Source: Paludisphaera borealis
Lineage (GTDB): Bacteria > Planctomycetota > Planctomycetia > Isosphaerales > Isosphaeraceae
Direction: 5' to 3'
Length of the DNA stretch: 64,000 bases
NCBI RefSeq assembly: GCF_001956985.1
Contig: NZ_CP019082.1
Location: forward strand, 248,001-312,000
Part shown: positions 5,469 through 59,738 of the stretch, piece after piece
How positions within the stretch are numbered: position 1 is the first letter of the stretch
How the letters are laid out: each line of letters starts with the position of its first letter
The notes under the pieces: model-generated
What the model was told of the DNA's origin: nothing
What the model saw: the letters and a program-made list of their open reading frames with translations, nothing else
Databases searched by the model: none
Program-made: the position numbers and the translations under genes

Positions 5469-6809
5469 TCAGCCGAACCAGCGGCGGCGGCAGGCCTGAG
5501 GTTTCGCGCCCTGGAGCCAGCGCCGGAGGTCGGCGGCGAACGCCTGGCACGAGGCGTAGCGGCGCTCGGGACGCTTCGCCATCGCCTTGCGACAGATGTC
5601 CGCCAGCGGGCGCGGGATGTGTCGGTCGATGTCGCGGGGGTCGGGGGGATCGTGATGGATCGCGTGGAACAGGACGTACGACGGCGGTCCGCAGAACGGG
5701 GGGCGACCGCAGAGCAGCTCGTAGAAGACCGCACCCAGGCTGTACTGATCGCTGGCCGGCACGACCGCGCTGCACGCGCCGACGGCCTGCTCGGGGGCGA
5801 TGTAGGCGGGGGTGCCGAGGATGGTCCCCGGCGGCGTGGGGGCGTCACCGGAATCGGGCCGGTAGGCGATCCCGAAATCCATCAGGTAGATCTCGCCCTG
5901 GGCGTCGAGGCGGACGTTGGCCGGCTTGACGTCGCGGTGGACGATGCCGAACCCGTGCGCGCACGCCAGGGCTTCGGCCAGTTCGGCGGCGATCTCCGCG
6001 CCGCGACGGTATGAGAGCCGCGTCTCGGCGAGCACCTCGGCCAGGCTCTTTCCCTCGATCAGGGCCAGGGCGATGTAAAGCTGATCGCCGTCGCGGCCCG
6101 CCTCGTACACCGAGACCACCCGGGGATGCCGCAGCCGGGCCAAAGCGCGCGCCTCGCCGAGGAACCGCTCGAAGGCGCGGGCCGACCGGGGAGCGCCCGC
6201 TCGCAGCAACTTGAGGGCCACCTCGCGTTCCAGAGTCGGGTCGAAGGCCCGATAGACCGTGGCGTGCCGGCCCTCGCCGAGCAGTCCCACGATCCGGAAC
6301 CGCCCCAGGCCGCGCGTGTCGGCCGCGGTCGCTCGCTGAAGCTCTCGGGTCTCCCGCCGCGTCGGGGCCGATCGGGGCGGCGCCGCCGTCGCGACGGCCG
6401 TCAGGCCGGGCGCCGGAAGGCTCGCGAGCACGCCGCCGGGCATCGGCGCGGAGGCGGCGGCCAGCAGGAACCGGCTGTCGTCGACGTCGACATCGACATC
6501 GTCGGGGTCGTCGTCGAACGGCGCCGCCAGGAACTCGCCGCTGTCGAAAGAGTGGGCGTGAGCGTGGGCGTGGCCGTCGCGGATCGTCGAGAACGCGAAC
6601 TCCCGCCCGGCCGTCTCAGGCCCGAGCCGCGGTGCCTGCCTCGGCAGCGGGCCCAGAACGTGCGCCCACCCGGAATCCGTGTTCGAAGCCCCGCCGGCTG
6701 GCAGCTTCGTCAGGCATCGGGGGCATCGGAATATCCTCCCGAGTGGATCTTCTCCGAGCTGGGAGATTCGGCCGCACGAAGGGTTCGGACATTGCACGGC
6801 GATTGTCAT
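5469..6809 (-). CDS. Serine/threonine protein kinase with N-terminal zinc ribbon
   Basis: A 446-residue Hanks-type kinase starting after GGAGAGGAGG. Residues 7-32 carry four cysteines (C7, C12, C29, C32) forming a small zinc-ribbon of a type common in planctomycete kinases. A low-complexity linker with an acidic Asp/Val run follows, then a complete catalytic domain: G-loop LLGEGRHATVYRAF, Lys in EVALKLL, HRDVKPANVRLD, DFGIAY, GTPAYIAPEQ. No TM segment or sensor domain follows the kinase, so it is probably cytosolic, unlike PASTA kinases. It lies upstream of the receiver-HATPase gene on the same strand, and a signalling link is plausible but unproven. Confidence 0.93.
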   Translation of the reverse strand: MTIAVQCPNPSCGRISQLGEDPLGRIFRCPRCLTKLPAGGASNTDSGWAHVLGPLPRQAPRLGPETAGREFAFSTIRDGHAHAHAHSFDSGEFLAAPFDDDPDDVDVDVDDSRFLLAAASAPMPGGVLASLPAPGLTAVATAAPPRSAPTRRETRELQRATAADTRGLGRFRIVGLLGEGRHATVYRAFDPTLEREVALKLLRAGAPRSARAFERFLGEARALARLRHPRVVSVYEAGRDGDQLYIALALIEGKSLAEVLAETRLSYRRGAEIAAELAEALACAHGFGIVHRDVKPANVRLDAQGEIYLMDFGIAYRPDSGDAPTPPGTILGTPAYIAPEQAVGACSAVVPASDQYSLGAVFYELLCGRPPFCGPPSYVLFHAIHHDPPDPRDIDRHIPRPLADICRKAMAKRPERRYASCQAFAADLRRWLQGAKPQACRRRWFG

Positions 6810-56498: not shown

Positions 56499-57587
56499 AT
56501 GAAGAGACCGGTTCGTGGTTCGCTCGCCTCGGGGTTCACGCTGATCGAATTGCTCGTGGTCATCGCGATCATCGCGGTCTTGATCGCACTTTTGCTGCCG
56601 GCCGTGCAGTCGGCGCGCGAGGCGGCCCGGCGCATCCAGTGCACCAACAACCTGAAGCAGTTCGGCCTGGCCTTCCACAACTATCACGATGCCTTGCAGT
56701 GCTTTCCGTTCGGCAAGGGGCGCGACTACATGATGGTCGACCCCATGGCGCCGATGTACGCGCGGTGGTCGGCCCACAGCCAGCTCCTTCCTTATTTCGA
56801 GCAGACGCCGCTGTACAACGCCATCAACTTCGCCCTGCCCCCCGAGGTGCCCCAGATCGGCGTCATGGGGGGGATGGGGATGGGTTTCATGCCCGCCTAC
56901 CAGAACCCGAACCGCGCCAATTCGACGGTCAGCCGGATCGCGATATCGGGCTTCCTGTGCCCCTCCGACCCGGCGGGGCCGATCGACGACTGGAACGGCG
57001 GGAACACCTATCCGGGCAATGAAGGCTCGTGGCTGTGCGACGCCTGCGAGCAGACGCCCAGCACGATCGCCCCCGGCGAGCTTCCTCGCGGCCCGTTGTA
57101 CAACCGGAGCTGCGTGCGGATCGCCAGCATGAGCGACGGCACCAGCAATACGGCCTTCATCAGCGAGAAACGGCGCGGGCTGGGGAGTCCCAGTCCCAAG
57201 AACGACCTGTACATGATGATGCCCACCACGACGCTGGACATGACGTACCAGTCCTGCACGAACCTGGATACGACCATGGCGACGGTCCTTTCCAACCGGA
57301 TCGGCGCCACCTGGGCGATCGGCGACATGACGTGCACGACGTATAATCACGTCGCCGGTCCCAATGCGCGAACCTGCGCGGGGATGAGCAGCGACATGAT
57401 GATGCCCGGCGCGTCGATGGTCGACATGTCGGTCCAGCTTCCGCCGTCGAGCTATCATCCCGGCGGCGTCAATCTCCTCTTCGGCGACGGCTCGGTCCGG
57501 TTCCTGAAGGACAGCGTCGCCATCACCGTGTTTCGATCGCTGGGCACGCGCAACGGCGGCGAAGTCACTAGCTCGTCGGATTATTAA
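56499..57587 (+). CDS. DUF1559 pseudopilin-like protein
   Basis: A 362-residue protein with a prepilin-type N-terminus ([20 protein letters not shown]) directly followed by [20 protein letters not shown], the DUF1559 signature. It has the family's usual later blocks ([32 protein letters not shown]) and the C-terminal [13 protein letters not shown]. Such proteins are very numerous in planctomycetes and are exported through a type II-like route. This one is rich in Met in the middle. GGGAGG precedes the ATG. Its TAA shares one base with the next gene's ATG, so translation may be coupled. Confidence 0.95.
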
Positions 57588-59002
57588 TGATCGAGCCAAT
57601 CGCGGCGACGCTGCCGACTCCTTCCACTCCTTCGACCTTGAACACCTTGAAGCGACGGCTCGGGCTGACGACGGCGACGGCCGTGGTCGTGGCCGAGATG
57701 ATCGGCGTCGGCGTCTTCTTGACGACGGCCGGCATGGCGAAGTCGGTGGGCTCGCCGTTCTGGCTCTCGGTCGTGTGGGCGACGATGGGCGCGGCGGCGA
57801 TCGGCGGGGCGTTCTGCTTCGGCGCGCTGGCCGCCCGCCGCCCCGAGGCCGGCGGCTCGTACATCTACTTGAAGGACGCCTACGGCCCGCGCGTGGGCTT
57901 CCTCTACGGCTGGTTGTCGATGCTGGTGACCGATCCGGGGATCACCGCGGCGGTGGCCGTGGGGCTGGCCGAGTACGTCGGCTACCTCGCGCCGATCGGC
58001 CCTTGGGGCCGGAAGTTCGTCGCGATGGCGGCGATCGGCGTCCTGGCGGGCGTCAACATCCGGGGCGTCGCGCTCGGGGCGAGCCTGCTGCGGGTGCTCG
58101 CGGCGCTCAAGCTGGGGCTGCTCGGGTTCCTGGTGTTCTGGGGATTCGCATCCGGCAAGGGCGATTGGTCGAACCTGCTGCCGATCGTCGCCCAGCGCCC
58201 GGGCTCGCAACCGCTCGTCCCCGCCCTGATCGGCGGGTTCATCGCGGCGTTTTTCTCGATGGGGGGCTGGTGGGACCTCAGCAAGCTGAGCGGCGAGGTC
58301 CGCGACCCCGCGCGCAACGTCCCCCGCGCCCTGGTGCTTGGCGTCTCAATCGTGACGCTCGTCTACGTCCTCATCACGGTCGTCTTCCTTTACCTGGTTC
58401 CGCTGGAACGGATCGACGACAAGCAAGCGTTCGCGGCCCTGGCGGGCGAGGTCTTGTTCGGCCGGCTTGGGGGCGCGGTCTTCTCGTGGATCGTCATCAT
58501 CACGGTGGCCGGCAGCCTGTCCGCGCTGCTGATGGCCGCGCCCCGCGTTTACTTCGCGATGGCCTGCGACGGCTTGTTCTTCCCCCGCTTCGCCGCGCTT
58601 CATCCGAAGTACGGCACGCCCGCGCGGGCGACGCTCATCCAGGCGGTCCTCGCCTGCGTGCTGGTGGCGGCCGGCACGTTCGACCAGATCCTCGCCTACT
58701 TCATCGTTCCCACCGTGGTGTTCCTGGTGCTGACCGTGTTCGCCCTGTTCGTGGGCGAGCGCGGGCGGTCGGCGCGGACGCCGGGCCTGATCGCCGCCGC
58801 CCTGCTCTTCCTGGCGCCGACCACCGCGCTGCTGGCCTTGTTCTTCATGGACAGCCCGTTGCGGGCGGGGATCGGCCTGGGCGTGGTCTTGCTCGGCGTC
58901 CCGTTCTCGTACCTCGTCGCCCCGGCCGGGACGACCGCGAATAGAACGGAAATCACAGATCAAGACCCGCCTGGCGAGGTAGGACGGAAGTTCGATTTAT
59001 AA
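57587..59002 (+). CDS. APC-family amino acid permease
   Basis: A 471-residue, 12-TM permease. Its first segments fit the APC fold (VVVAEMIGVGVFLTTAGMAK, FWLSVVWATMGAAAIGGAFC, FGALAARRPEAGGSYIYLKD). The GVGVF helix break of TM1 and the FFSMGGWWDLSKLSGEVRDP segment of TM6 resemble the LAT/APC exchangers of amino acids. The charged C-terminal tail is short. The start overlaps the pilin-like gene by one base; a functional link is not evident. A tandem hairpin follows its stop. Confidence 0.92.
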   Translation: MIEPIAATLPTPSTPSTLNTLKRRLGLTTATAVVVAEMIGVGVFLTTAGMAKSVGSPFWLSVVWATMGAAAIGGAFCFGALAARRPEAGGSYIYLKDAYGPRVGFLYGWLSMLVTDPGITAAVAVGLAEYVGYLAPIGPWGRKFVAMAAIGVLAGVNIRGVALGASLLRVLAALKLGLLGFLVFWGFASGKGDWSNLLPIVAQRPGSQPLVPALIGGFIAAFFSMGGWWDLSKLSGEVRDPARNVPRALVLGVSIVTLVYVLITVVFLYLVPLERIDDKQAFAALAGEVLFGRLGGAVFSWIVIITVAGSLSALLMAAPRVYFAMACDGLFFPRFAALHPKYGTPARATLIQAVLACVLVAAGTFDQILAYFIVPTVVFLVLTVFALFVGERGRSARTPGLIAAALLFLAPTTALLALFFMDSPLRAGIGLGVVLLGVPFSYLVAPAGTTANRTEITDQDPPGEVGRKFDL

Positions 59003-59020
59003 TCAATAGATGATGGGTGC

Positions 59021-59092
59021 CACGGGTTCGGTTCGCCGAACCCGTGCGTAAAAAGCCGTGGCTTGCGGCCACGGGTTCGAGCCGAACCCGTG
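59021..59092. terminator. Tandem hairpins after the permease gene
   Basis: A perfect 11-bp stem CACGGGTTCGG / CCGAACCCGTG closed by the stable TTCG tetraloop (59021-59046), then AAAAAG, then a perfect 10-bp stem CACGGGTTCG / CGAACCCGTG with an AGC loop (59070-59092). Related sequence (GGTGCCACGGG) occurs in the dispersed repeats at 34207 and 35027. It probably works as a terminator. Confidence 0.7.
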
Positions 59093-59171
59093 CCACCCCG
59101 ACGAGAACGGACCAAAATCCACGAATCAGAATCTGCTGGAAGACGCCTGACCCGAGAAAGGAGCCTTCTCA

Positions 59172-59738
59172 ATGGCCTGGATTCGCACGATACCGATGGA
59201 CGACGCCGGCGACGAGTTGAACGACTTGATGGCCAAGCAGCGCGGGCTGTACCCGCAGGAGTACGCCGAGCCGGTTCACGAGCTGGACGAGGGGCTGCCG
59301 GGCATCGTGGCCTCGCACACGCTTATCCCCCAGGCGCTTTACCACGCGTTCGCGACGTTCGGCTCGCTGATGTCGCCCGACCTGCCGCTGAAGCGTCGGC
59401 AGCACGAGATGATCGCCACCATGGTCTCGCTCACCAACAAGTGCCATTACTGAATTGTCTCTCACGCAGAGTTTCTGCGTCGGGTCACCCTGGACGATGC
59501 GCTCATCCAGGCGTTGAGTGAAGACTATACCAAGGCGCCGATCACCGAGGCCGAGCGGGTGATGGTCGACTACGTCGTCCAGCTCACCAAGGACGCCACC
59601 AAGATCTCGCCGCTCGATCACGAGAAGCTTCGCAAGGTCGGCTTCGACGACCAGGCGATCCTCCAGATCACCTTGATCGCCTCGTGGTTCAACTATATCA
59701 ACCGCGTGGCCGACTCGCTGGGCGTCGGCCGCGACTGA
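59172..59738 (+). CDS. AhpD-like peroxidase-related protein, probable selenoprotein (in-frame UGA)
   Basis: A 188-residue protein of the alkylhydroperoxidase/carboxymuconolactone-decarboxylase fold (peroxidase-related type). It opens with [20 protein letters not shown] and has [19 protein letters not shown] at 59451-59453 lies in frame at residue 94, at the second Cys of the AhpD CxxCxxxH redox motif: [13 protein letters not shown]. Reading through UGA as selenocysteine gives an unbroken family-length protein ending in SLGVGRD. A SECIS-like hairpin lies just downstream. The alternative is a nonsense mutation or base-call error. A known group of bacterial selenoproteins is AhpD-like. GAGAAAGGAG precedes the start. 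It should reduce peroxides or disulfides. Confidence 0.8.
59464..59480 (+). promoter_or_regulatory. SECIS-like hairpin
   Basis: A perfect 7-bp stem ACGCAGA / TCTGCGT with apical loop GTT lies in the coding sequence. The loop begins 17 nt after the UGA and has G first, within the bounds described for bacterial SECIS elements (spacing about 16-37 nt, G in the first two loop positions). Beyond a C-C mismatch, the stem can extend by three more pairs, two of them wobbles. The codons involved (ATT, TCT, GCA, TTT, CGT) are unusual for this GC-rich genome. Confidence 0.7.

Follow-up and report, generated by a model that had tools for sequence, protein, structure and literature searches.

An AhpD-like gene of Paludisphaera borealis with an in-frame UGA at its redox motif very probably encodes a selenoprotein

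Does an AhpD-like gene of Paludisphaera borealis that is interrupted by an in-frame TGA at its redox motif encode a selenoprotein, with UGA read as selenocysteine (Sec), or does the TGA end or disable the gene? The locus lies in a window of 64,000 nucleotides, by which we mean the whole stretch of DNA analyzed. Judged on sequence comparisons, the gene very probably encodes a selenoprotein in which UGA is read as Sec94, a putative thiol/selenol oxidoreductase with a carboxymuconolactone decarboxylase (CMD) fold. Its features are as follows.

59172..59738, + strand: predicted AhpD-like (TIGR01926 / COG2128 type) selenoprotein gene of 188 codons, counting Sec94 among the residues
59157..59163, + strand: Shine-Dalgarno-like AAAGGAG, 8 nt 5' of the ATG, read directly from the sequence
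59442..59444, + strand: TGC codon of Cys91, the opening residue of the CxxU redox motif, from the sequence
59451..59453, + strand: in-frame TGA, the putative Sec94 codon, TGA in 100 of 104 homologue rows

The frame runs from the ATG at 59172 to a terminal TGA at 59736-59738 and is open apart from the one internal TGA. With that codon written as U, the motif reads C91-H-Y-U94-I-V-S-H98, that is, CxxC(U)xxxH, and falls inside a CMD domain (PF02627, 2.9e-7, above the Pfam cut-off). When Cys was substituted for Sec, the protein scored 108.3 bits (3.7e-31) against the NCBIfam family TIGR01926, "peroxidase-related enzyme," whose curated cut-off is 81.8 bits; by this score it is a TIGR01926 (COG2128) member. 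The match covers residues 52-185 and continues unbroken through the TGA codon, which bears out the claim of the sequence-only reading that a single frame is family-consistent on both sides of a single TGA. Residues 29-185 also align with the solved structures 2pfx, 3c1l, 2oyo, 2prr, and 6k40, matching their CxYC and the following His. Where the window protein has Sec94, these distant relatives carry Cys, as do four homologues with TGC, in agreement with the earlier placement of the TGA at the second Cys of CxxCxxxH. Gene calling with the bacterial code, in which UGA is a stop, yields a 93-residue open reading frame (ORF) and a shorter downstream ORF. A second genomic copy of the gene was sought, but the nearest paralogue, at C1:4183544, is only 30% identical and has no TGA.

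The sequence-only reading had noted that translation through UGA would imply a Sec system and had proposed a search for selA, selB, selC, and selD. All four were found in the host genome (7.65 Mb, 3 contigs, 99.9% complete), which thus has a complete Sec gene set. The absence of selB or selC, named in that reading as a refuting condition, does not apply here.

C1:7008587-7008681, minus strand: tRNA-Sec (selC), anticodon UCA, one clear copy at 78.8 bits
C1:4038530-4041834, minus strand: selB then selA, adjacent
C1:5372140-5373069: selD, 354.7 bits, no TGA

SelB (644 aa) combines an EF-Tu GTP-binding domain with a C-terminal winged helix, and SelA (459 aa; PF03841, 2e-120) is encoded directly after it. 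Formate dehydrogenase was considered as another Sec user and rejected, its two best genomic matches being free of internal stops. Because these matches and selD lack an in-frame TGA, the host genome may have few Sec users besides the AhpD-like gene. Outside the window, at C1:1544498-1545559, a weak formate-dehydrogenase-alpha-like match occupies a frame that TGA interrupts twice; gene decay or a frame shift may account for it.

Homologues were drawn from 294 genomes across the phylum, 45 genomes of the family, and a GTDB contig set, giving 104 alignable rows in which some genomes are counted twice, having been found by two separate searches. The row filter let through Cys, Sec, or Ser at residue 94, so that other residues would go unlisted; two fetched homologues (L092 and L114) failed it and stand outside the 104. 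Codon 94 is TGA in 100 rows and TGC in the remaining 4 (L010, L042, L043, and L045). The proposed check of this residue therefore returned only Cys or Sec, with Ser, which the pattern also allowed, in none. Rows with TGA come from Planctomycetota, Acidobacteriota, Gemmatimonadota, Latescibacterota, and KSB1, and none of the homologue rows has a stop upstream of the terminal codon besides the TGA at codon 94. On this alignment, conservation of the TGA is far beyond chance. Median NG86 dN/dS is about 0.15 3' of the TGA compared to 0.25 5' of it, with dS partly saturated. The part after the TGA is therefore under purifying selection, at least as strong as that acting 5' of it.

These values bear on the alternative that survives best, namely, that the functional product is the 93-residue chain ending at UGA and that Sec insertion is minor or conditional. 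Termination competes at UGA in every Sec system, and its efficiency is invisible in sequence. However, such a product would lose half of the domain along with U94 and H98, and the part after the UGA is conserved at least as well as the part before it. We consider a 93-residue functional product very improbable and favor read-through to the full 188 residues.

A candidate SECIS hairpin lies downstream of the UGA, within the coding sequence.

59464..59480, + strand: putative bacterial SECIS hairpin, stem ACGCAGA/UCUGCGU (7 bp), from conservation, folding, and a rare-codon test

The published bacterial SECIS (bSECIS) model has a loop of 3-9 nt, a stem of 4-16 bp, a G within loop positions 1-2, a distance of 16-37 nt from the UGA, and an energy of at most -7.5 kcal/mol (PMC13188914). 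The window hairpin falls within every one of these published limits (PMC13188914): its loop is GUU (59471-59473), 3 nt with the G first, and it lies 17 nt after the UGA with an energy of -8.2 kcal/mol. Hairpin strength in the single sequence was set aside as evidence, its z-score ranging from about -0.7 to -2.1 with the stretch chosen. In the GC-rich DNA of the window, a bSECIS-like hairpin follows about 16% of codons by chance, and the argument for a SECIS element therefore rests on conservation.

That conservation was assessed on a non-redundant set of 83 close Sec loci. Counting from the TGA, codons +4 to +9 read CAC GCA GAG TTT CTG CGT and are identical in 82, 80, 83, 83, 83, and 82 of the 83 loci, respectively. 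Synonymous entropy is 0-0.22 bits at these codons and about 0.5-2.1 bits at conserved codons elsewhere, while the flanking Ser +3 and Arg +10 are free, each using four or more codons. Three of the frozen codons are rare in the window, judged by usage in neighboring genes (GCA, 2.6%; TTT, 6.2%; CGT, 4.0%). Under local codon usage the joint chance of the six choices is 1.6e-5, and a 7-bp stem at this site arises in only 0.09% of synonymous recodings. The stem has 7 bp in 82 of the close loci and 6 bp in 1, with energies from -8.2 to -6.4 kcal/mol. In a more distant relative (L013) a stem pair has changed from A-U to G-C with pairing kept, and L051 and L127 carry G-U variants. Two remote family members (L046 and L047) have a different but equally valid hairpin, with loops GGUC and AGUU and a spacing of 25, and a remote TGA relative (L014) has a weak candidate only (-6.7 kcal/mol). 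The 7-bp hairpin at 17 nt is not kept in the four Cys homologues.

The reading frame, the conservation of both the TGA and the hairpin, and the Sec genes are direct observations, and two further explanations can be weighed against them. A single in-frame stop in a single sequence would look the same if the gene were a pseudogene or if TGC or TGT had been misread as TGA. Many assemblies made independently also have TGA at this codon, which excludes a sequencing error. The recurrence of the same TGA in many independent genomes from several phyla also speaks against a pseudogene, as do the persistence of purifying selection 3' of it and the six downstream codons frozen at the nucleotide level; we give pseudogene or error together almost no weight. 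Equally far-fetched, although the TGA does lie in frame within a conserved gene, is a general recoding of UGA as Trp, Cys, or another residue, or unspecific read-through, since the AhpD-like gene itself and 2/5 neighboring genes end in TGA, the Cys homologues and the hairpin at fixed spacing indicate Sec, and the genome has a dedicated Sec system. The proposal of the sequence-only reading that the gene is translated through UGA as Sec is thus upheld, at the level of sequence evidence, by the Sec gene set, the 100/104 TGA rows, and the conserved SECIS.

The distribution of Sec and Cys forms among close relatives is consistent with Sec at position 94. Within the family of the window's host, selA scores above the cut-off in 30/45 genomes and tRNA-Sec in 28/45. 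The TGA form occurs in 17 of these genomes, each of which carries tRNA-Sec or a selA that is whole or fragmented; 14/17 have both, and the other three are assemblies that are 68-83% complete. The Cys form occurs in three genomes of the same genus, two of which (G321 and G324) have neither selA nor tRNA-Sec. The third (G323) has both, so that its Cys form (L042) sits alongside an intact-looking Sec system, a point that counts against the Sec reading. In a quick tree, the Cys forms cluster (support 82) next to Sec forms from the group to which the window gene belongs, and the tree is all-Sec apart from this Cys group; it is unrooted and modestly supported, with L010 on a long branch. Because the Cys forms group within an otherwise all-Sec tree, the topology, within these limits, suggests that Sec was replaced by Cys in the Cys-form group.

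The genomic neighborhood offers a lead to function, which we do not take as a demonstration, in the form of a transporter gene that recurs beside the selenoprotein gene.

57587..59002, + strand: amino-acid permease, APC-type (AA_permease_2, 1.5e-47), upstream of the AhpD-like gene

A homologue of this permease lies upstream in 40/104 rows, often <100 nt away or overlapping, in Planctomycetota, Acidobacteriota, Gemmatimonadota, and Latescibacterota. Among the 104 rows it is absent beside Cys forms and remote relatives. The gap between the two genes of the window, about 170 nt long, contains an inverted repeat (59015-59098) with 21-nt arms GGGTGCCACGGGTTCGGTTCG that are 90% complementary and with extra GCCACGGGTTC copies between them. 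Its sequence resembles that of a REP-type or terminator-like element, and the repeat may end or attenuate the transcript. Short related copies of the GGCACGGGTTC motif also occur at 5949, 42581, and 63457.

Translation through UGA, together with the substrate and the reductant, is what we infer from this evidence. SelB carrying Sec-tRNA(UCA) would bind the hairpin 17 nt 3' of the in-frame UGA, and Sec would enter at position 94 in place of the CxxC Cys, giving C91-x-x-U94-x-x-x-H98. The spacing E79-(12)-C91-(3)-U94-(4)-H98 is, we assume, that of the Glu, the two Cys, and the His of the active site of Mycobacterium tuberculosis AhpD. In that enzyme, peroxide reacts with the second active-site Cys. 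By analogy, the Sec94 selenolate may attack and reduce peroxide or a related oxidized substrate, after which Cys91 would resolve the intermediate to form a Cys91-Sec94 selenenylsulfide. A thiol donor could then reduce this bond, and E79 and H98 might assist as in AhpD.

AhpD-like proteins were known as an established selenoprotein family, as the sequence-only reading had stated. CxxU members of COG2128 have been on record since 2005, when 27 sequences were reported from the Sargasso Sea (PMC1088965); the 2008 GOS survey added 299 "AhpD-like 1" selenoprotein sequences (PMC2398784), and a 2026 review places CxxU AhpD-like selenoproteins under TIGR01926 (PMC13188914). The window protein resembles this family in its TIGR01926 match, its CxxU motif, and its bacterial SECIS type. 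Unlike the published members, which are mainly marine or metagenomic (PMC1088965, PMC2398784, PMC13188914), its gene is planctomycete, and unlike the published sets, its subclade is shared with Acidobacteriota and Gemmatimonadota and has Sec in nearly all close members. Two NCBIfam families, AhpD_rel_CFYUT (NF041238, entered as CxxU in PMC13188914) and GroundWater_YciW (NF053654), hold related AhpD-type (seleno)proteins. The window protein belongs to neither, scoring 64.1 bits against a cut-off of 175 for the former and 34 bits against a cut-off of 310 for the latter.

The earlier remark that few planctomycete selenoproteins are reported needs correction. Sec systems and selenoproteins are on record for two planctomycete Porphyra isolates, and both Gemmata obscuriglobus and Isosphaera pallida are reported to carry a full set of Sec genes (PMC4807772). 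Our literature search found no paper joining selenoprotein and Paludisphaera and none joining selenoprotein, Acidobacteria, and carboxymuconolactone decarboxylase. The window gene is thus a well-supported addition to a known bacterial selenoprotein family, and its novelty is modest. What appears to be undescribed is the near-universal Sec in a cross-phylum subclade, together with its near-invariant SECIS and frequent permease linkage. We speculate, tentatively and with more doubt than confidence, that this TIGR01926 subclade of Planctomycetota, Acidobacteriota, and Gemmatimonadota is Sec-fixed in a permease-linked role, has moved between phyla while its SECIS stayed the same, and is among the main reasons why these organisms retain a Sec system. 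If true, such a role could lie, for example, in dealing with peroxide or other redox products that arise from imported amino acids. The near-invariant 18-nt SECIS across phyla, set against same-genus Cys versions that lack the 7-bp hairpin, offers a case for comparative study. Because standard gene calling splits the gene at the UGA, annotation of planctomycetes, acidobacteria, and gemmatimonads can easily overlook the true protein.
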